35,735 nt of DNA from a virus: positions 1 to 35,735 of IMG/VR virus record IMGVR_UViG_3300008448_011429, one strand, 5' to 3'. The first letter of the stretch is position 1; every line of letters starts with the position of its first letter. A program made the translations under genes and the position numbers. The notes under the pieces were generated by a model that ran no database searches, had not been told where the DNA came from, and saw only the letters and a list, made by a program, of their open reading frames with translations. Below, in pieces: positions 1 to 19,860 of this stretch.

Positions 1-1
1 G

Positions 2-82
2 GCTTTGGACGAGATGGCAGACATGGACAACGCATTGGGATTCTTTGGACCCGATGACAACAATGAAATGGACGGGATCTAA
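2..82 (+). CDS. C-terminal end of an unknown upstream gene (partial)
   Basis: An open frame enters from the left edge and ends at the TAA at 80-82. Only 26 residues are visible. They are acidic and Met/Asp/Asn-rich, ending in DDNNEMDGI, and no family can be recognised. The stop codon overlaps the ATG of the next gene (TAATG), which is normal for tightly packed phage operons and supports this frame. Confidence 0.6.
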   Translation, partial: ALDEMADMDNALGFFGPDDNNEMDGI

Positions 83-519
83 TGAGCGTATCTTTGATTT
101 ACGGACAGGGCAATCTTTTCTCAACCTCCATCAACGAAGGTTCGATGTATGTTGAAGTGTCTTACACCAAGCCGCTGACCTTTGATAATACCTTGACGAT
201 CACAGAACCTTTTGGGGAAGCGATTGATCATCCGACTGTTTCCAACTACCCACAAATTCCTCATAATTTTTTTATGGGTTCCTTTGATGGCTTTTGGGTT
301 CACAAGATTTACCTTGGAGGAAACCTTGTAATGACCGTGCAGACTGTAGATCAGGATATGTTCATTCCCGTGCAGTATGACCGTATTGAGAGCGTGTCTA
401 TGGAATTTCCGACTGAAAGCATTCCTTACGATGGGCCTGTGCGTCCTCCCGTTCCTGCTCCGGGAATGGGCTTGCTTGTGGCGATGGCAACTTTGGTTGC
501 CTTCTCTAGACGCCGATAA
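82..519 (+). CDS. Hypothetical protein with a PEP-CTERM-like C-terminal tail
   Basis: This is a 145-aa protein of unknown function. The body is beta-rich with no recognisable domain. The last 23 residues have the three-part layout of a PEP-CTERM sorting signal: a short motif VPAPG, a hydrophobic helix of about 13 residues (MGLLVAMATLVAF), then SRRR. VPAPG-type variants are common in Planctomycetes and other exosortase-bearing bacteria. There is no N-terminal signal peptide, which true exosortase substrates need, so sorting is not assured. The start at 82 overlaps the previous stop (TAATG). Base composition looks more GC-rich than the flanking phage genes, which could mean recent acquisition. 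Alternatives are a C-terminally membrane-anchored phage protein or chance resemblance. Confidence 0.75.
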   Translation: MSVSLIYGQGNLFSTSINEGSMYVEVSYTKPLTFDNTLTITEPFGEAIDHPTVSNYPQIPHNFFMGSFDGFWVHKIYLGGNLVMTVQTVDQDMFIPVQYDRIESVSMEFPTESIPYDGPVRPPVPAPGMGLLVAMATLVAFSRRR

Positions 520-528: not shown

Positions 529-1287
529 ATGCATTACAAGACTGTCTTTCTTTCAGACTTTCATTTGGCTTCCAAGAAAGCAAAGACAAAGCCTCTTATT
601 GCATTTCTAAAAAATAATGAATTTGATAATATCTTCCTTGTGGGAGATATTATCGATATATGGAGATTCAAACAGGCATTCTCCATGAATGCCGAGAAAC
701 AAAATCACCATATGGAAGTAATCGAAAGATTGCTCAAACTTTCTCGTAAGGGAACAAAGATTCATTACATCTATGGAAACCATGATGAGTTCATGGCAAA
801 GTTTTCAGGCCATCACATATTTGGTAATATTAGTTTGAGTGAACGAGAAGAATACACTACTTCTTCAGGAAAGAAGTTTCTTATTCTTCATGGACATCAG
901 TTTGACTTTCTTACAAAGTTTCCTGTCAGTTCTTATATCTACAAACTAGGTGACTATGCATATGAACTGATCTTAGAAATTAATGATTGGTTCAATTGGT
1001 GTAGAAGAATGATGGGAATGAGATACTGGTCTATCTCAAAGTATGTGAAGATTAAAGTAAAGAGAGCAGCGCAGTTCATCGAAAGCTTTGAAAGCGTTGT
1101 TATTAAATACGCCAAGGAAAAAAAATATGATGGAGTTGTCTGTGGTCATTTGCACGAACCTAAGTTGTATACTGTAAATAATATTACATATGCCAATTGT
1201 GGTTGCTGGACAGAGAAAGACAACTGCACATTTCTTTATGAAGATTCAGATGGATCTTTGAAACTGGACACCTATGCGATCCATTGA
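529..1287 (+). CDS. LpxH-like calcineurin-type metallophosphoesterase
   Basis: This 252-aa protein belongs to the calcineurin-like metallophosphoesterase superfamily and is closest in pattern to UDP-2,3-diacylglucosamine diphosphatase-type enzymes (LpxH/COG2908). All metal-binding motifs are visible: D10-x-H12 in FLSDFH, G39-D40, GNHDE at 83-87, HGHQFD at 121-126 and GHLHE at 206-210. The dinuclear metal site therefore looks intact. The length is close to bacterial LpxH (about 240 aa). LpxH hydrolyses a lipid A precursor, but many COG2908 members have other or unknown substrates, so the substrate is not assigned. A late-type promoter lies directly upstream, and two tiny membrane-protein genes overlap downstream, which could hint at envelope action. 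Confidence 0.85.
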   Translation: MHYKTVFLSDFHLASKKAKTKPLIAFLKNNEFDNIFLVGDIIDIWRFKQAFSMNAEKQNHHMEVIERLLKLSRKGTKIHYIYGNHDEFMAKFSGHHIFGNISLSEREEYTTSSGKKFLILHGHQFDFLTKFPVSSYIYKLGDYAYELILEINDWFNWCRRMMGMRYWSISKYVKIKVKRAAQFIESFESVVIKYAKEKKYDGVVCGHLHEPKLYTVNNITYANCGCWTEKDNCTFLYEDSDGSLKLDTYAIH

Positions 1288-10007: not shown

Positions 10008-10015
10008 TATTTATG
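10008..10015 (-). promoter_or_regulatory. Late-type promoter CATAAATA
   Basis: CATAAATA on the minus strand lies at the end of the 2137-aa gene, 16 nt before the ATG at 9991. A TAGGAA ribosome-binding site lies between them. Confidence 0.5.
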
Positions 10016-13000
10016 ATAAACCCTTAATTGCTCCACATGAACCTTGGAATACTTGTTGTTGTATTCCGGCAGAAGTTTGCTTAGTTCCAGTATTTCCATC
10101 AGTATAAATTGGTATCGATGAAATATCTATTCTATCTGAATTTATTTTCATTAATGCAATTTTCTGTTGTTGTTGGAGCAACAATGAATTTTTCTTAATA
10201 GCATATGTCGGAGCACTATCTGCATTAGATTTATTTGCCCATGTCGATTGATTCAAGAATGAATAGGGAAGAATTGGGCATCCATAATGATATATTGAGG
10301 AATCTGATGAAATTTCTCTAGTATAATTCAAAACATCGTTCAAAAGAGTTATACCATTATAAGATGAATTACCAACATTTGGAGATTCATCAAGATTAAT
10401 ATAATCCGATATGAATGAATTATAAGCAAGACCAATTACTCTTGGATATGTATTACCAAAATAATATTTGTTTGTAGTATTTCCAGAAACTTTATTCAAC
10501 GATTGAGTTACAAGTTGCTGATATGTTGTTTTATCAATAGTAAAGTTTGGTCCAAATGCACTTGCAACGCAACTTCCAGGAATTTTATGTCCATACAGTA
10601 CTCTGTTTTGATCTAATAATGGAACATAAGTTCTTATTTCGCTTGAAGTCATATTTGGATTTATAACATTAGACGTAACTTCAAAAGGTAGTTGAGCTTG
10701 CGTCATTGACAATGGATTATAGATAAAAGCAGTTTGACCGGGAAGATTTAATACACCCAATCTTTCAGCTTCTGACACAGGGGGATTTTCGACAATTGGA
10801 ACTTCATAACGATCAGTAGTCCACCATATACCAAATTTATTATTTGGAATATTAATATAATCCGTAATTCCATTAATATTATAACTAGTCGTGATACCAC
10901 TTTGAGAGCCGCGAACAATAATTGGAGATTGTGTTGCGGGATGAGCAAATGTAATTCTCCAAAGATAATTACCATCTACTTTCTGTGCACCAGAAATAAG
11001 ATATGATCTTTCATCCATGTTCATTGGAGCAAGATATGTTGTTTCCCATACTGTACCACTTCCAATTGTTTGGCATTCACCAATAACGGTATTGATTTTT
11101 CTTGCAAGTTCCATTCTCATTGCACCACACACACCCAAACAGGTTAGACCGCCCGATTTCTGAGGAGATGTTTGAGCTTGTGTATATCTTCGACCACCAA
11201 AACATACTGATTCATTCATATAGACCAAAGGCGTACCATCAGATGATGTCATATCATAAGTTGCTGGATTCCAATAACTATATCTTCCCGTTTTATTCAA
11301 ATATTGATGGCGAATATTTTCATAATACATTGGTCCTGCTTCACCATATATAAATGTAAATCCATCTAATTGTGTTGCGGGAACAATTGTACTAGTGCGA
11401 TAACCAAAAGTTATGCCTTGAGGGACATAATATGTAGATGATAATACTGTGCTATTACTAGTTAAATTAAAATGATCATCGTTAGTCCATTTTTGATGTG
11501 CAATCCATGTATTAATTGGTTTTTGTATTCCATACCATTTTGATCCTGGTATTTTTGGATTATTAACTGGATCTTTTCTTTCATATACTGCTTTTGATAC
11601 ATTACATTTGGCAACTTGTCTACCCCATTTTACATCCATAAGCAATGTCATGAAGGCCATAGGATACCAGTTTGTCCAATAATTATTATAAATTGTTCCC
11701 GCAGGCAAATTAACTGCTGGAAATGGATTGCCACAAGGATCTAATTTATCACTTGGTATTCCTGTTCCGCCCGCCATATAAAATACCGTTTTTGCTCCAT
11801 AAGTCAATCCAAAATAAATATCAGGTCCATGAATTGGCAAATAGTTTGCTGGTCCGCTGACTTGTCCCGAAGAGAATCTATTAATATTGATTCCCCATAC
11901 TGGATTCAAATGCCATGAAACAAAATGTGGTGTTCTGTCAAAACTAACATTTATACTATTGGCTGCACAAGATCCAGATGCACCTGTTGGATCATACATA
12001 AAGAATCCAGTTTGACCCATTATTTCTCCACATGATGGGAATTGTTTTACTTGTGCCGCTGCATTTGAACCAAGCCATCCTGCAGGAAAAAACTTTTTAG
12101 CAAAATTAGTATTTGTTACAGGAGAATTTGAACCATATTTGGCTATAAGTGCAAAAGAATTCCAATACCAATTACCTATATTTTTACCATAAGTAACACC
12201 ATTAGTTGCAAGCCCATATGTATTACCTCTCCAATCTAAATTTCTATCAATAATTCTTGGAGAATTGCTGGCTGGATCCACTTCTTGTAAAATACCGCCA
12301 TAAGTATGAATTGATCCAACATCTCCTACTTGTTCGGTAAGAAGATTAACAACACTATCTAAATTATATGCATCATTATATGCATAATAATCAAATACAG
12401 GTTTACTTCTGTTTTTATTGGCAGGGTCTACTGTTGTAACATAAGGAACATAATCAGAATTTGTGCGGTTTAATGAATTTGATAAACGATTATTGTTTAC
12501 ATAAAAATTATTTGTATATGAAGGGTCTGTAAAATTAATTACTGCATTATTTAATTTATAATATCCATAGTCAGCAGATAAAGAGTTATCAGCACTAATA
12601 CCGTTGTATAATTTAAAATCATCAACAAAATCATTCCAATGCCCAGCATACCAATCTTGAATTGCTGATATATACTCCCATTTCAAAAATTGAAATGGTG
12701 ATCCACTCATAGCAATATTGCCATCGGCATTTGGGCTATTATACACAGCCGTCAATCCTTCAACATAACGATAATTTGATGGGTTTCCTGTAAAACCTTT
12801 AGTCAAAAGGTGCGAGCGCATTGAAGTAATTCCGCGAGCAATAAGACAATCAGGAGCAGCACAAGATCCATAAAAATTAGAATACCAGTTTGAACCTGTT
12901 ACACCATTATTGGGATATAGATATTTAAAATAAAAATTTGAATCACCATTAGCTGGAATATTTCCTATGTCATTAGCGAGAGAATTATAAATTTCATCAT

Positions 13001-16000
13001 CAAAATCTATATGGGCCATAGTAAAACCTTTTCCAGACAAATACCCATATATCGCTCTTAATTCTGTACGTAAAAAATTAACTTTACGTTTTAACCATGG
13101 ACTTTTAATAGTATTACCATTTGACATGGTAATAATCTCAGTATCTGGAAGTAGACTATTCGTTTGTGCTCTCCACCATCTGTCGGCAAACAAAACTCTA
13201 TACTTATTTGGTATCCAAGCATAATCTTGAGCAAATCTATCTAAACCGGCTTTTGAATAAAATCCGGTTGCACCAAATGTAAGACCAATATATCCTGTGG
13301 CTGAATTCCATGGCGCCACGGACATATCAATATCAACATCTGGATTATTATTAAATCCAACACCAGTCCAACCTTGATCTACACCTGCGCTAGGTGGAAA
13401 TATTCCTGCGTTCAAATTACTTTGACTTGGTCCATTTCTTCCTTTTATAACACTCATGACAGGCCACATATATGTCAAACCATTTTGACTTCCCCAACGT
13501 TCTGCCTGTCTCCACCAACCATATGGTGGAGACATAGTACAGAATAAATCAGGATTTATATAATCTTTTGGTATTACCTGTCTACCTTCAGCAGTTGTAG
13601 TTGCGTTAAACATAAACGCTGGATTTTCTACAAGATTTAATTTGTTAAATCTGAGTGCTTCTGGGATTGGAGGATTATCAACAATTGGATATTCCAGATT
13701 TCCCGTTGTCCACCACACACCAAATTTATTATTTGAATTGTTAATGTAATCAGTTATACCACTTACATTATATCCAGTTGTTATTCCTGAACATGAACCA
13801 CGAATTATAATTGGAGATGGATCTGTTGCTGGATTAGAAAAGGTAATCCTCCACAAGAAATTTCCATCAATTTTTTGAGCACCAGAAGCTAGGTAAGTTC
13901 TTTCATCCAAGTTTATTGGTGCCAGATTTACAGTCTCTTTAACCATTCCATTACCTATCGTATCACATTCACCAATAACTGTATTAACTTTTCTAACAAG
14001 TGCCATGGCCATAGCACCACAAATTCCATATGATGTCAATCCATTTGGTAATTGTGGATTTTGTGTATTTAATGTAAGCATTCTTCTCGGGAATGTTTGA
14101 TTTTCAGCAGGTACTTGACCTCCTACGGATGTTGTAACGCATGTATAGGAAAAAATACCCCAATAAGAATATCTTCCAACTTTATTCAAATATTGATGGC
14201 GAATATTTTCATAATACATTGGTCCAGCTTCACCAACAGGGAATGTAGTTCCTGTTGCCATAAAACTTTGTATATAATATCCAAAAGTTAATCCTGTTGG
14301 AATATAATAATTTGAATCTATTTTTGTTGTATCACCACGCCATTTTTGATTTGCTATCCAAATATTTATTGGTTTTTGAATTCCATTCCAAATAGAATTG
14401 GGAACTTGTTTGCTTGGATTATTTCTTTGATCCACTGCTCTAGTTACATTATTAACAGCAAATTGTCTTCCTATGGAAACATCCTGTAACAAGGCAATGA
14501 AGTGCATAGGATACCAGTTTGACCAATAATGATTATAAAGACTTCCTGCTGGCAAAGTATTTCCAGGATATGGATTCATACAAGCATCAAAATGACTAGC
14601 AAACCATGTTTTTCCGGTACCAAGAGCTTCTAAAGTTTTTTTTCCATAGGTTATACCAGTTATGACATCCGCAGTCAATACAGGAATATAATTTGCTGGA
14701 CCATAAGATGCAGTAGCAGGTATAAATGTAATTCCCCATACAGGATTCAAATGCCAAGATTGTAATTCTGGAGACCTATCAAAACCTGCTTTTATAGCAA
14801 TAGGAAAAGTAGAACCACTAGATCCCGTCAAATCGAATTGTCTGAACTGACAACTTCCTATTGTTTCCGCACATGTTGCACAATTTACTAATGCTGGTAA
14901 GCCTGTTGTTGTACCAAGATAATTGGCTGGTATCCATTTTTTGGCTGGTGTGTTTAGTGGCGAACCAAGTGAGGAGTATTGCTGCTCCATCATAAACCCA
15001 TATATCATTCCTATGCCATAGGTTTTTCCATTATTTGCAAAATTATATGAATTTCCTTTATAATCTAATGTCCTATCTAATACATATCCACTATTATAAA
15101 CACTTGGTCCTGGAAAGGCTCCATATGTATTAATACTAGAAATTGATCCTGGTATTCTATAACCTACATTACCAGGAAATGCGGGATTTGGATTCATATT
15201 ATCATAAGAATAATACCTCCGCATGTTTGCATCACTAATTTTAGTCGATGGAGATAATGGATAAGGAATAGCATCAGTGCTTCCGATATTAAACAAATTT
15301 GTTAAAAATGTTGAATTTGGAAGAGATGGATTTAATAATCTATAACCAGAAATACCTGCATTATTATAATAATATCCATAAGAACTATATAATATATTAT
15401 CTGCTAAATGATTATTATAAAGTTTAAAATCATTAAATAAATCTTGCCAGTGAGCTGCTGTCCAATCTTTTAATGCATAAGCAAATTCGTTTCCTAGCCA
15501 CATATCTCTTGAAGTTGTTGCAGCGATATTTCCTGAAACACCAGCAGAACCTTGCGCTGTAATACCATCAATAAATTTAAATGATGACGGATTGGTAGTC
15601 CATCCTCTTGTAAGAAGAAATGCCCTAAAAGAAGTTATACCTTCTGCTATTAATGAATCTGGTGCTGCTGATTGTCCTGAAAATGAAGCATACCAAGAAC
15701 TTCCAGTAGGTGAATTATTTGGATATACATATAAATTTTTAAAATTCACTCCATCATTTAAATCAGTAAAATTATAAACTTGATAAAATTCATCATCGTT
15801 TTCAATACCGCCACCAAAGAAAAAACCCGTTGATCCCGTATATGAACAAAAAGCTTTTAACTCGGCTCGTAAAAAAGACATTTTACGTTTTAGCCAATGA
15901 GATTTTTTTAATCCTGAAGTTAAAGTTATGTCTTCTGTTCCTGTTATACCAGTTGTAGAAGTTATAAATCTCCATATTCTAAATGGAGAGAATACTCTAT

Positions 16001-16424
16001 ATTTTTCTGGAATCCATCTATTTTCACTTACAATTCTTTGAGCGGTTCTAATATCCAAAAAACCAGTAGCACCAAATGTCAAGCCAATATATCCAGTTGA
16101 TGTGTTCCAAGGACCACATGCACCATTAATTTCAGGTTGAGTATATGGATCGTTTCCAATTCCAGGCCAATCTTGTGCTGTAGCAAAAACTGCTCCACTT
16201 GATTGTGGAAAAATACCATTATTTAAATCAACTAATCTAGGTCCACAGCTACCATATATGGTATAATGAACCATTGGCCACATATATGTCAAACCATGTT
16301 GGCTTCCCCAAGTCAATCCCTGATTCCAGTAACCATAAGGAGATTGGTCCATTACTCCATATAAAGGTGTTGCTACAGTAATACCTGATTGAGAAATGTT
16401 TGTATTCAGTAATATAGGATGCAT
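10011..16424 (-). CDS. Giant tail/adsorption protein with two tandem ~940-aa units
   Basis: At 2137 aa this is the largest gene in the window. Two homologous units follow each other. Both start near PYG(Y/W)W, contain GLTYMWP, TGYIGLTFGATGF and WLKRK..FLR.EL, an acid-rich strand (IENDDE near residue 208, IDFDDE near residue 1140), a YYENIRHQYLNK segment, and end in a beta module DGN(F/Y)LWRITF. The acid-rich strands and the overall pattern suggest glycosidase-like TIM barrels, but no family is certain. About 200 unrelated residues end the protein, finishing VFQGSCGAIKGLS. The 694-aa fibre gene is a shorter relative. The probable role is binding or depolymerising host surface polysaccharide. 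The ATG at 16424 is preceded by GAAAG. The frame is intact throughout. Confidence 0.7.
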   Translation of the reverse strand: MHPILLNTNISQSGITVATPLYGVMDQSPYGYWNQGLTWGSQHGLTYMWPMVHYTIYGSCGPRLVDLNNGIFPQSSGAVFATAQDWPGIGNDPYTQPEINGACGPWNTSTGYIGLTFGATGFLDIRTAQRIVSENRWIPEKYRVFSPFRIWRFITSTTGITGTEDITLTSGLKKSHWLKRKMSFLRAELKAFCSYTGSTGFFFGGGIENDDEFYQVYNFTDLNDGVNFKNLYVYPNNSPTGSSWYASFSGQSAAPDSLIAEGITSFRAFLLTRGWTTNPSSFKFIDGITAQGSAGVSGNIAATTSRDMWLGNEFAYALKDWTAAHWQDLFNDFKLYNNHLADNILYSSYGYYYNNAGISGYRLLNPSLPNSTFLTNLFNIGSTDAIPYPLSPSTKISDANMRRYYSYDNMNPNPAFPGNVGYRIPGSISSINTYGAFPGPSVYNSGYVLDRTLDYKGNSYNFANNGKTYGIGMIYGFMMEQQYSSLGSPLNTPAKKWIPANYLGTTTGLPALVNCATCAETIGSCQFRQFDLTGSSGSTFPIAIKAGFDRSPELQSWHLNPVWGITFIPATASYGPANYIPVLTADVITGITYGKKTLEALGTGKTWFASHFDACMNPYPGNTLPAGSLYNHYWSNWYPMHFIALLQDVSIGRQFAVNNVTRAVDQRNNPSKQVPNSIWNGIQKPINIWIANQKWRGDTTKIDSNYYIPTGLTFGYYIQSFMATGTTFPVGEAGPMYYENIRHQYLNKVGRYSYWGIFSYTCVTTSVGGQVPAENQTFPRRMLTLNTQNPQLPNGLTSYGICGAMAMALVRKVNTVIGECDTIGNGMVKETVNLAPINLDERTYLASGAQKIDGNFLWRITFSNPATDPSPIIIRGSCSGITTGYNVSGITDYINNSNNKFGVWWTTGNLEYPIVDNPPIPEALRFNKLNLVENPAFMFNATTTAEGRQVIPKDYINPDLFCTMSPPYGWWRQAERWGSQNGLTYMWPVMSVIKGRNGPSQSNLNAGIFPPSAGVDQGWTGVGFNNNPDVDIDMSVAPWNSATGYIGLTFGATGFYSKAGLDRFAQDYAWIPNKYRVLFADRWWRAQTNSLLPDTEIITMSNGNTIKSPWLKRKVNFLRTELRAIYGYLSGKGFTMAHIDFDDEIYNSLANDIGNIPANGDSNFYFKYLYPNNGVTGSNWYSNFYGSCAAPDCLIARGITSMRSHLLTKGFTGNPSNYRYVEGLTAVYNSPNADGNIAMSGSPFQFLKWEYISAIQDWYAGHWNDFVDDFKLYNGISADNSLSADYGYYKLNNAVINFTDPSYTNNFYVNNNRLSNSLNRTNSDYVPYVTTVDPANKNRSKPVFDYYAYNDAYNLDSVVNLLTEQVGDVGSIHTYGGILQEVDPASNSPRIIDRNLDWRGNTYGLATNGVTYGKNIGNWYWNSFALIAKYGSNSPVTNTNFAKKFFPAGWLGSNAAAQVKQFPSCGEIMGQTGFFMYDPTGASGSCAANSINVSFDRTPHFVSWHLNPVWGININRFSSGQVSGPANYLPIHGPDIYFGLTYGAKTVFYMAGGTGIPSDKLDPCGNPFPAVNLPAGTIYNNYWTNWYPMAFMTLLMDVKWGRQVAKCNVSKAVYERKDPVNNPKIPGSKWYGIQKPINTWIAHQKWTNDDHFNLTSNSTVLSSTYYVPQGITFGYRTSTIVPATQLDGFTFIYGEAGPMYYENIRHQYLNKTGRYSYWNPATYDMTSSDGTPLVYMNESVCFGGRRYTQAQTSPQKSGGLTCLGVCGAMRMELARKINTVIGECQTIGSGTVWETTYLAPMNMDERSYLISGAQKVDGNYLWRITFAHPATQSPIIVRGSQSGITTSYNINGITDYINIPNNKFGIWWTTDRYEVPIVENPPVSEAERLGVLNLPGQTAFIYNPLSMTQAQLPFEVTSNVINPNMTSSEIRTYVPLLDQNRVLYGHKIPGSCVASAFGPNFTIDKTTYQQLVTQSLNKVSGNTTNKYYFGNTYPRVIGLAYNSFISDYINLDESPNVGNSSYNGITLLNDVLNYTREISSDSSIYHYGCPILPYSFLNQSTWANKSNADSAPTYAIKKNSLLLQQQQKIALMKINSDRIDISSIPIYTDGNTGTKQTSAGIQQQVFQGSCGAIKGLS
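10715..13526 (-). repeat. Second unit of the tandem duplication within the 2137-aa gene
   Basis: This unit runs from the second PYGWW motif (PYG at 13526) to the second FIYN motif near 10715. Boundaries are approximate. Matching N-terminal landmarks lie 2814 nt (938 codons) from those of the first unit. Matching C-terminal landmarks lie 2892 nt apart, so this copy is about 26 codons longer. The copies are clearly diverged in DNA, so the duplication is old or has been diversified. Confidence 0.8.
13607..16340 (-). repeat. First unit of the tandem duplication within the 2137-aa gene
   Basis: This unit runs from PYGYW (PYG at 16340) to FMFN near 13607. It shares with the second unit the order of motifs GLTYMWP, GLTFGATGF, WLKRK, the acid-rich strand, YYENIRHQYLNK and DGNFLWRITF. 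The boundaries are estimated by eye. Confidence 0.8.
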
Positions 16425-19393: not shown

Positions 19394-19476
19394 GCGAGTG
19401 TACTCAAGCGGTCAACGAGGGCAGACTGTAAATCTGCTGGCTTATGTCTACGAAGGTTCGAATCCTTCCGCTCGCA
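19394..19476 (+). tRNA. tRNA-Tyr (anticodon GTA)
   Basis: This is a class II tRNA with acceptor stem GCGAGTG/CGCTCGC, anticodon loop CTGTAAA (GTA), an extended variable arm and T-arm AAGGTTCGAATCCTT. The discriminator is A and CCA is not encoded. Confidence 0.92.
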
Positions 19477-19549
19477 CTAAATAAAAATGGTATTGTTGAT
19501 ATTGGATTGAAATGCGTACAAGACGGGGGTTCGAATCCCCCCGACTCCA

Positions 19550-19644
19550 TTAGCCTAAGTCAGAGAATCTGCAATCCTCTGAAAACGGCGAATCAAGTCC
19601 TCGTAGCAGCGGGGCATTTCCCGAAGTCCTAGGCTTCGGGTCAG
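19550..19644 (+). other. Intervening segment of the permuted tmRNA
   Basis: This segment of about 95 nt would be removed during maturation. It can fold into TCAGAG/CTCTGA (19560-19565 with 19577-19582), CCTCG/CGGGG (19599-19603 with 19610-19614) and a perfect 7-bp hairpin CCCGAAG/CTTCGGG (19620-19626 with 19634-19640). An alternative long-range pairing AGCCTA/TAGGCT (19552-19557 with 19630-19635) would bring the two mature ends together. Confidence 0.6.
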
Positions 19645-19739
19645 GGGGTCGAAAGGAATAGATTGGCGCAAAGTAATGAAGAAGGAGATGCCCGACACGG
19701 GTAACAAGTGTCGTAAATAAACAGTTGCAAAAAATAATT

Positions 19740-19766
19740 GCTAACCAATTAGCAATGGCTGCTTGA
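19740..19766 (+). other. tmRNA proteolysis-tag reading frame
   Basis: The resume codon GCT at 19740 is followed by codons for N-Q-L-A-M-A-A and a TGA at 19764. With the tRNA-borne alanine the tag would be AANQLAMAA, ending in the small hydrophobic residues recognised by ClpXP-type proteases. It starts AAN like most bacterial tags but is shorter. The stop codon sits in the 3-nt loop of a CTGCT/AGCAG hairpin, as the stop does in many tmRNAs. Confidence 0.78.
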
Positions 19767-19804
19767 AGCAGTGGGGTTTGGTCTCCCGCATCTGAATCGA
19801 CCCG

Positions 19805-19830
19805 AAACCCCCCTCAAAAGGGGTTTTGTT
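19805..19830 (+). terminator. Rho-independent terminator of the tRNA/tmRNA transcript
   Basis: The AAACCCC/GGGGTTT stem (19805-19811 with 19820-19826) is followed by TTGTTATTT. The same AAACCCC can instead pair with GGGGTTT at 19773-19779 in the tmRNA coding piece, so the two hairpins compete. Confidence 0.8.
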
Positions 19831-19832
19831 AT

Positions 19833-19860
19833 TTGACAGGCCATAAATAAGGAGTATACT
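19833..19860 (+). promoter_or_regulatory. Consensus sigma70-like promoter with embedded late element
   Basis: TTGACA (19833-19838), a 16-nt spacer and TATACT (19855-19860) are followed by 6 nt and the ATG at 19867. The spacer contains CATAAATA (19842-19849), a late-type element, so the same genes may have both early and late promoters. The terminator directly upstream isolates it from the tmRNA. Confidence 0.8.

Follow-up and report, generated by a model that had tools for sequence, protein, structure and literature searches.

A conserved PEP-CTERM-like tail on a signal-peptide-less protein family of T4-like phages, a candidate substrate of host exosortase

The protein encoded near the start of a 35.7-kb virus record (IMGVR_UViG_3300008448_011429; "the window" denotes the whole 35,735-nucleotide stretch analysed) ends in a PEP-CTERM-like tail that comparison with its relatives confirmed as real. 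It belongs to a family, Fam1, whose 33 members (the window copy and 32 further loci) all keep the proline motif, the hydrophobic stretch and the basic end. What the sequences themselves establish is the conserved tail, the lack of a signal peptide and the presence of other tailed families in the same lineage. PEP-CTERM/exosortase sorting is widespread and chiefly known through comparative genomics. We give an even chance to the explanation that Fam1 is a T4-like phage protein sorted by the exosortase of its host, through putative recognition of the tail, and acting in the host envelope.

The window protein (Table 1) terminates in ...VRPPVPAPGMGLLVAMATLVAFSRRR directly before the stop codon, the tail reading VPAPG-MGLLVAMATLVAFS-RRR. 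Kyte-Doolittle hydropathy reached 2.36 in the tail (13-residue span) versus a maximum of 0.84 in the first 35 aa (11-residue span), in agreement with the original prediction that no N-terminal export signal is visible. The composition, said there to be unlike that of the neighbours, indeed stood out in both GC (0.46 in the gene versus 0.366 in the window) and GC3 (0.483, exceeding all 12 long ORFs of the window, whose median was 0.235), as if the gene had moved among phages out of a higher-GC source. In most of the low-GC records (the window and 15 others), GC3 of Fam1 was well above that of the long ORFs. The one-base overlap of stop and start codons suggests translational coupling of Fam1 with the upstream gene; the ORF upstream of Fam1 in the relative L002 is ~120 aa long and has no assigned function. 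The downstream metallophosphoesterase has a 99.6% identical counterpart in G001.

Table 1. Positions of the Fam1 gene, its parts and neighbours in the window, and of the adjacent Fam3-Fam2 pair in other records
Feature	Position	Strand	Description
Upstream gene, 3' end	1..82	+	TAA at 80-82 overlaps the Fam1 ATG at 82
Fam1 gene	82..519	+	145-aa phage protein with acidic body and PEP-CTERM-like tail, without signal peptide
Fam1 body, 123 aa	82..450	+	4 K/R, 14 D/E; low-confidence beta prediction
VPAPG motif	451..465	+	V-P invariant in alignment A2 (30/30); positions 3-5 are A/S/E, P/A, G/S
14-residue uncharged, mostly hydrophobic segment	466..507	+	Predicted helix 129-144, low-confidence model
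Terminal RRR	508..516	+	At least 2 K/R within 6 residues at the end of every member
Metallophosphoesterase, downstream neighbour	529..1287	+	~42% to UDP-2,3-diacylglucosamine diphosphatases
Adjacent Fam3-Fam2 pair	L164:776-1408, L170-L181; upstream genes e.g. L172:5290-5994		Both with exosortase-like tails

No T4 late-promoter motif was found upstream of Fam1, an absence that is uninformative because the structural and terminase genes of G002 (capsid, sheath, portal, terminase) lack one too, and sigma-70-like sites occurred in the window at chance frequency. Just 5' of the Fam1 start in L044/L045, a TTGACC-17-TATACT sequence ends ~7 bases before the ATG, a single case that suggests early host-type transcription and a nearly leaderless mRNA. 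The window protein had no relatives in PHROG and none in the PDB by profile search (0 PDB matches), and two AlphaFold models had mean pLDDT values of 47.5 and 40.3, too low for fold matches to carry meaning. Matches of the Pfam RbmA-like FnIII model to 11 of 30 Fam1 members stayed below its cut-off (best E 0.027) and were set aside as weak. Elsewhere in the window, ARAGORN called a permuted-type tmRNA (19459-19857, tag ANQLAMAA) that overlaps a tRNA-Tyr and may be spurious, and a minus-strand ORF of 2137 aa (10011-16424) had neither a PHROG match nor a relative in the phage collection.

Tails were scored against four curated models with cut-offs, in bits, of 16 (TIGR02595), 25 (NF050189), 20.7 (PF07589) and 20 (MYXO-CTERM). 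The window copy fell below every one of them: its isolated tail scored 14.8, 18.7, 15.6 and 14.7 bits, respectively, and for the whole protein MYXO-CTERM was the sole model listed (E=1, 9.8 bits). The window protein alone is thus a weak case, and the tail is accepted as real because the relatives decide. When TIGR02595 was run over whole records, its cut-off was exceeded at the Fam1 tail in 6/13 and 8/17 Fam1 records, 14/30 together; the whole protein of L033 reached 17.7 bits, and the best NCBIfam score of a 35-aa member, L020, was 19.6 bits with NF050189. With E-values up to 1 admitted, whole Fam1 proteins were matched by TIGR02595 in 16/30 cases and by PF07589 in 21/30, the best E being 0.0045; such whole-protein E-values are weak because the TIGR02595 model is only 24 residues long. 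The profile search proposed for checking the tail thus stayed below the cut-offs for the window copy but gave hits to PEP-CTERM models among the relatives. The central claim, a phage protein that has a PEP-CTERM-like tail and lacks a signal peptide, holds, since all relatives found are tailed and some exceed the cut-off.

The relatives were recruited from viral_contigs, where the single protein retrieved 19 loci and profile A1, with its search patterns placed in the body and outside the tail, retrieved 29, giving 30 different loci overall; two more were reached by starting from a remote member. Among the 30 full-length proteins of alignment A2, V-P was present in 30/30, proline at the fourth position in 29/30, and a hydrophobic stretch without charged residues followed by a basic end in 30/30. 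Because the relatives were recruited by body patterns and the tail was kept in every A2 protein, its conservation goes beyond chance, and relatives lacking the tail, which had been named as an outcome that would overturn the prediction, did not turn up. Conservation extends to distant members: the remote pair L183/G035 and L239, with 32% identity to the query used, carries CPSPAG, a hydrophobic stretch and KRSRH, and a member of 44% identity (L046) has the canonical VPEPS. Neither the 50,697 phage records nor, with the Fam1 profile, the cellular genome_contigs yielded a Fam1 relative.

A group of loci with near-identical bodies (L011-L018) shows how the tail behaves when its end is exchanged. 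In this group the DNA 3' of the hydrophobic stretch has been swapped together with different downstream neighbours, and in L012/L015 the sequence after the hydrophobic stretch appears, by eye, to run into a tRNA gene. Four unrelated C-termini resulted, SKRKR, RRKRGH, KRSRLNI and TKNTFRKE, all of them basic, the last (L016-L018) being degraded or weak. At least two K/R in the last six residues were found in 21/21 distinct Fam1 ends versus 33% of 1,591 long ORFs from the same records, a background that counts all frames and a set of 21 ends that are not fully independent. The basic end appears to be restored by selection. In three groups, dN/dS was 0.13, 0.14 and 0.34 for the motif plus TM and 0.17, 0.20 and 0.15 for the body. 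Judged by these ratios, the motif plus TM is under constraint, which is weaker in the third group, where constraint is looser on the tail than on the body (0.34-0.39 versus 0.15).

By hydropathy, a signal peptide was found in 0/32 Fam1 sequences measured: hydropathy over the first 45 aa had a median of 0.75 and a maximum of 1.63, versus 2.1-2.8 in a second tailed family, Fam2. Among PEP-CTERM proteins, ~97% carry such a peptide at the N-terminus (PMC1569441). Fam1 falls short of strict PEP-CTERM membership by its missing signal peptide, while it has the motif, the TM, the basic end and, in many members, a score above the model cut-off. The body has a negative net charge in 32/32 sequences (-3 to -11), and the tails are positive; by the positive-inside rule, such an acidic body and basic tail would leave the motif on the outer face and the basic end on the inner one, with the motif located as by Haft and colleagues (PMC1569441). 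YidC/Oxa1-type insertion is described for translocated segments up to ~50 residues, while those above ~100 generally need SecY (PMC7616256); the Fam1 body, with 123 residues, is longer than the ~50 said there to suit YidC-type insertases. Fam1 would therefore either use Sec in an unusual way or act from inside, as a tether or a decoy. Two subtilase-like proteins recognized by eye in carrier phages (L058:488-1891 in G003, and G002 123257-124663) have signal-peptide-like N-termini, so that these phages do equip other proteins with export signals at the N-terminus.

Three further tailed families were found in this lineage. Fam2, discovered through a sub-threshold TIGR02595 match in G006, has a signal peptide and a complete tail (motif, hydrophobic stretch, basic end) in 12/12 loci that represent 8 distinct proteins. 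Its motifs are IPTPG, IPAPG, IPNPG and VPAPS, with IPCGG in L181, and TIGR02595 scored above cut-off in G036 and G038; by sequence, Fam2 fits the full definition of PEP-CTERM. Its body shares ~31-41% with DUF11/isopeptide-type surface proteins of plasmids and Listeria phages. Fam3 lies directly upstream of Fam2 in all 8 distinct loci that were read; cysteine-rich motifs at its start and a lysine-rich stretch precede a short internal hydrophobic anchor, and it ends in P-x-P-like (TPSSG in one case), hydrophobic, basic tails, for example VPSPSSLSVFAIAQLFNTRKRI or IPEPQPFSLITLGLINHTKRRSS. Fam4, which combines a signal peptide with the tail VPAPGALALLGLAGIVGRRRR, was found in the T4-like G038 (59% GC), which also carries Fam2 and Fam3, and had no other relative in viral_contigs. 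Fam1, Fam2 and Fam3 occur together in G006 and G035. Since Fam2 is present in just 1/30 Fam1 records, many of which are fragments, the link between the families is one of lineage, without strict co-occurrence.

A profile built from 33 Fam1-Fam4 tails was then scanned against 16,561 C-termini (G008, G024 and G030 only partly covered). It returned 32 below 1e-4, all from Fam1-Fam4 (19, 6, 6 and 1), a result that is circular for these families because their own tails made the profile. The best non-member had an E-value of 0.075, and none of 2,717 internal control segments did better than 0.53; one true Fam1 member was missed (G013, E=1.7). No fifth family of exactly this kind emerged from the scan, which does not show that none exists.

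Terminase, sheath, portal and capsid proteins of T4 type could be read from the long ORFs of G001, G002, G003 and G038, and the major capsid proteins of three carriers are 53-63% identical to their counterparts in Kyanoviridae of Pelagibacter, Methylophilales and cyanobacteria. By these genes, the Fam1 carriers are T4-like myoviruses, and we take them to be freshwater phages from their IMG sample numbers and nearest isolates. None of 10 Kyanoviridae isolates, the family of the nearest isolates, had any TIGR02595 match, so a PEP-CTERM tail is not common among relatives of these phages. The phage records searched (13, then 14) contained no exosortase gene, and the enzyme would thus have to come from the host. 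In the Pelagibacter order, host of the nearest isolates, an exosortase was found in 0/78 sampled genomes. Tails of IP/VPAPG type occur in Planctomycetes, which makes these bacteria host candidates. The Fam1 tail is a plausible host marker. Two other host clues were discarded, the GMP reductase of G003 for having only general relatives (49-57%) and the capsid neighbours for being too distant (53-63%).

Sorting by a host exosortase has to be weighed against the possibility, which we regard as unlikely, that the tail simply anchors a cytoplasmic phage protein at the inner face of the membrane, e.g. as an assembly or exclusion factor, its PEP-CTERM likeness being convergent and no exosortase being involved. 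Such a tether would suit a 123-aa body without signal peptide, phages in whose searched records no exosortase was found, a window copy below the cut-offs, and a hydrophobic part that varies in sequence yet stays hydrophobic, as expected of an anchor. Against it stand the V-P found in 30/30 proteins and the proline found at the fourth position in 29/30, neither of which a bare anchor needs, the canonical VPEPS of L046, and the same type of tail on three other families of the lineage that have N-terminal signals.

It is a good deal less probable that Fam1, above all in a 35-aa form, serves as a decoy, a poor substrate that occupies the host exosortase and during infection blocks sorting of host surface proteins. 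The one hint comes from L020 (L020:4962-5066), where an in-frame deletion of the body has left 35 aa, made up of the start with 12 leading residues and, after them, the tail; the locus is the same, with flanks ~95% identical, and the tail has gained conservative changes. With no charged residue ahead of its basic end, the part between the start Met and the hydrophobic stretch included, this form could insert without a signal. Yet it is known from a single record and could be a decaying gene. The body is conserved in all 32 remaining members, where many of its residues are invariant and within-group dN/dS is low (0.15-0.20, as above), indicating that the body matters too.

Least probable of these is a captured host exosortase substrate that shed its signal peptide and is now carried along as a passenger gene without sorting function, which would account for the high GC3 and the variable neighbours of Fam1 but not for 33 members diverging down to 32% identity under purifying selection on body and motif plus TM, with neither a member bearing an ancestral signal peptide nor a cellular relative found. 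The original idea of a captured host gene is supported in part, by the high GC3 in low-GC phages; no cellular relative turned up in genome_contigs, and divergence to this extent marks a phage family of long standing rather than a recent capture.

If Fam1 is indeed a host exosortase substrate, it would sit during infection in the inner membrane of the host, its motif periplasmic and its basic end cytoplasmic, the topology predicted above, and the host exosortase, provided that it recognizes the tail, would cut and anchor it. An acidic, probably beta-rich phage domain would then be displayed in the host envelope, most likely altering the surface of the infected cell, e.g. against a second infection; roles such as blocking further adsorption or altering aggregation would be guesses. 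Export is the obstacle in this scheme: a signal or anchor at the N-terminus is present in Fam2, Fam3 and Fam4 but absent from Fam1, whose 123-residue body would have to cross the membrane. Fam1 would be one member of a set, Fam1-Fam4, of phage proteins of this kind. A larger picture, which we consider doubtful, has this freshwater T4-like lineage rebuilding the cell surface with at least four families of exosortase substrates, the acidic N-terminal body of Fam1 being inserted across the membrane under the lead of the tail without an N-terminal signal; if true, it would mean a new route into exosortase sorting and a use of that pathway by viruses that is undescribed in the literature searched. 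Phage-encoded substrates would be small, testable tools for exosortase sorting, would point to exosortase-bearing hosts and would illustrate how viral infection may change the host cell surface, and the signal-less Fam1 would test what substrates need in order to reach exosortase.

Among known systems, MYXO-CTERM/myxosortase and GlyGly-CTERM/rhombosortase also use a tripartite C-terminal tag (PMC11980579). MYXO-CTERM requires an invariant motif cysteine; the window tail contains no cysteine and scored below the cut-off of 20. PGAP-CTERM (NF050189), which is not named in the literature searched, gave the highest NCBIfam score for the window tail taken alone, though below its cut-off (18.7 versus 25 bits). 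Kyanoviridae and other T4-like myoviruses (Mosig, Melnitz, HTVC008M, cyanophages) resemble the carriers in their capsids (53-63%) but are without TIGR02595 matches, and the DUF11/isopeptide-type proteins akin to the Fam2 body are, among those listed, mostly Gram-positive. No phage PEP-CTERM protein is described in the literature searched, in which few subscription journals are represented. The closest parallel is PEP-CTERM (TIGR02595/PF07589) with exosortase EpsH/Xrt (PF09721), with which Fam1 shares the proline motif, ~13-14 hydrophobic residues and the C-terminal basic end. By contrast with PEP-CTERM proteins, Fam1 is phage-encoded, has no signal peptide and no exosortase in the same genome, and mostly carries VPAPG in place of VPEP. 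On these features Fam1 would work like a standard PEP-CTERM protein without being classed as one.
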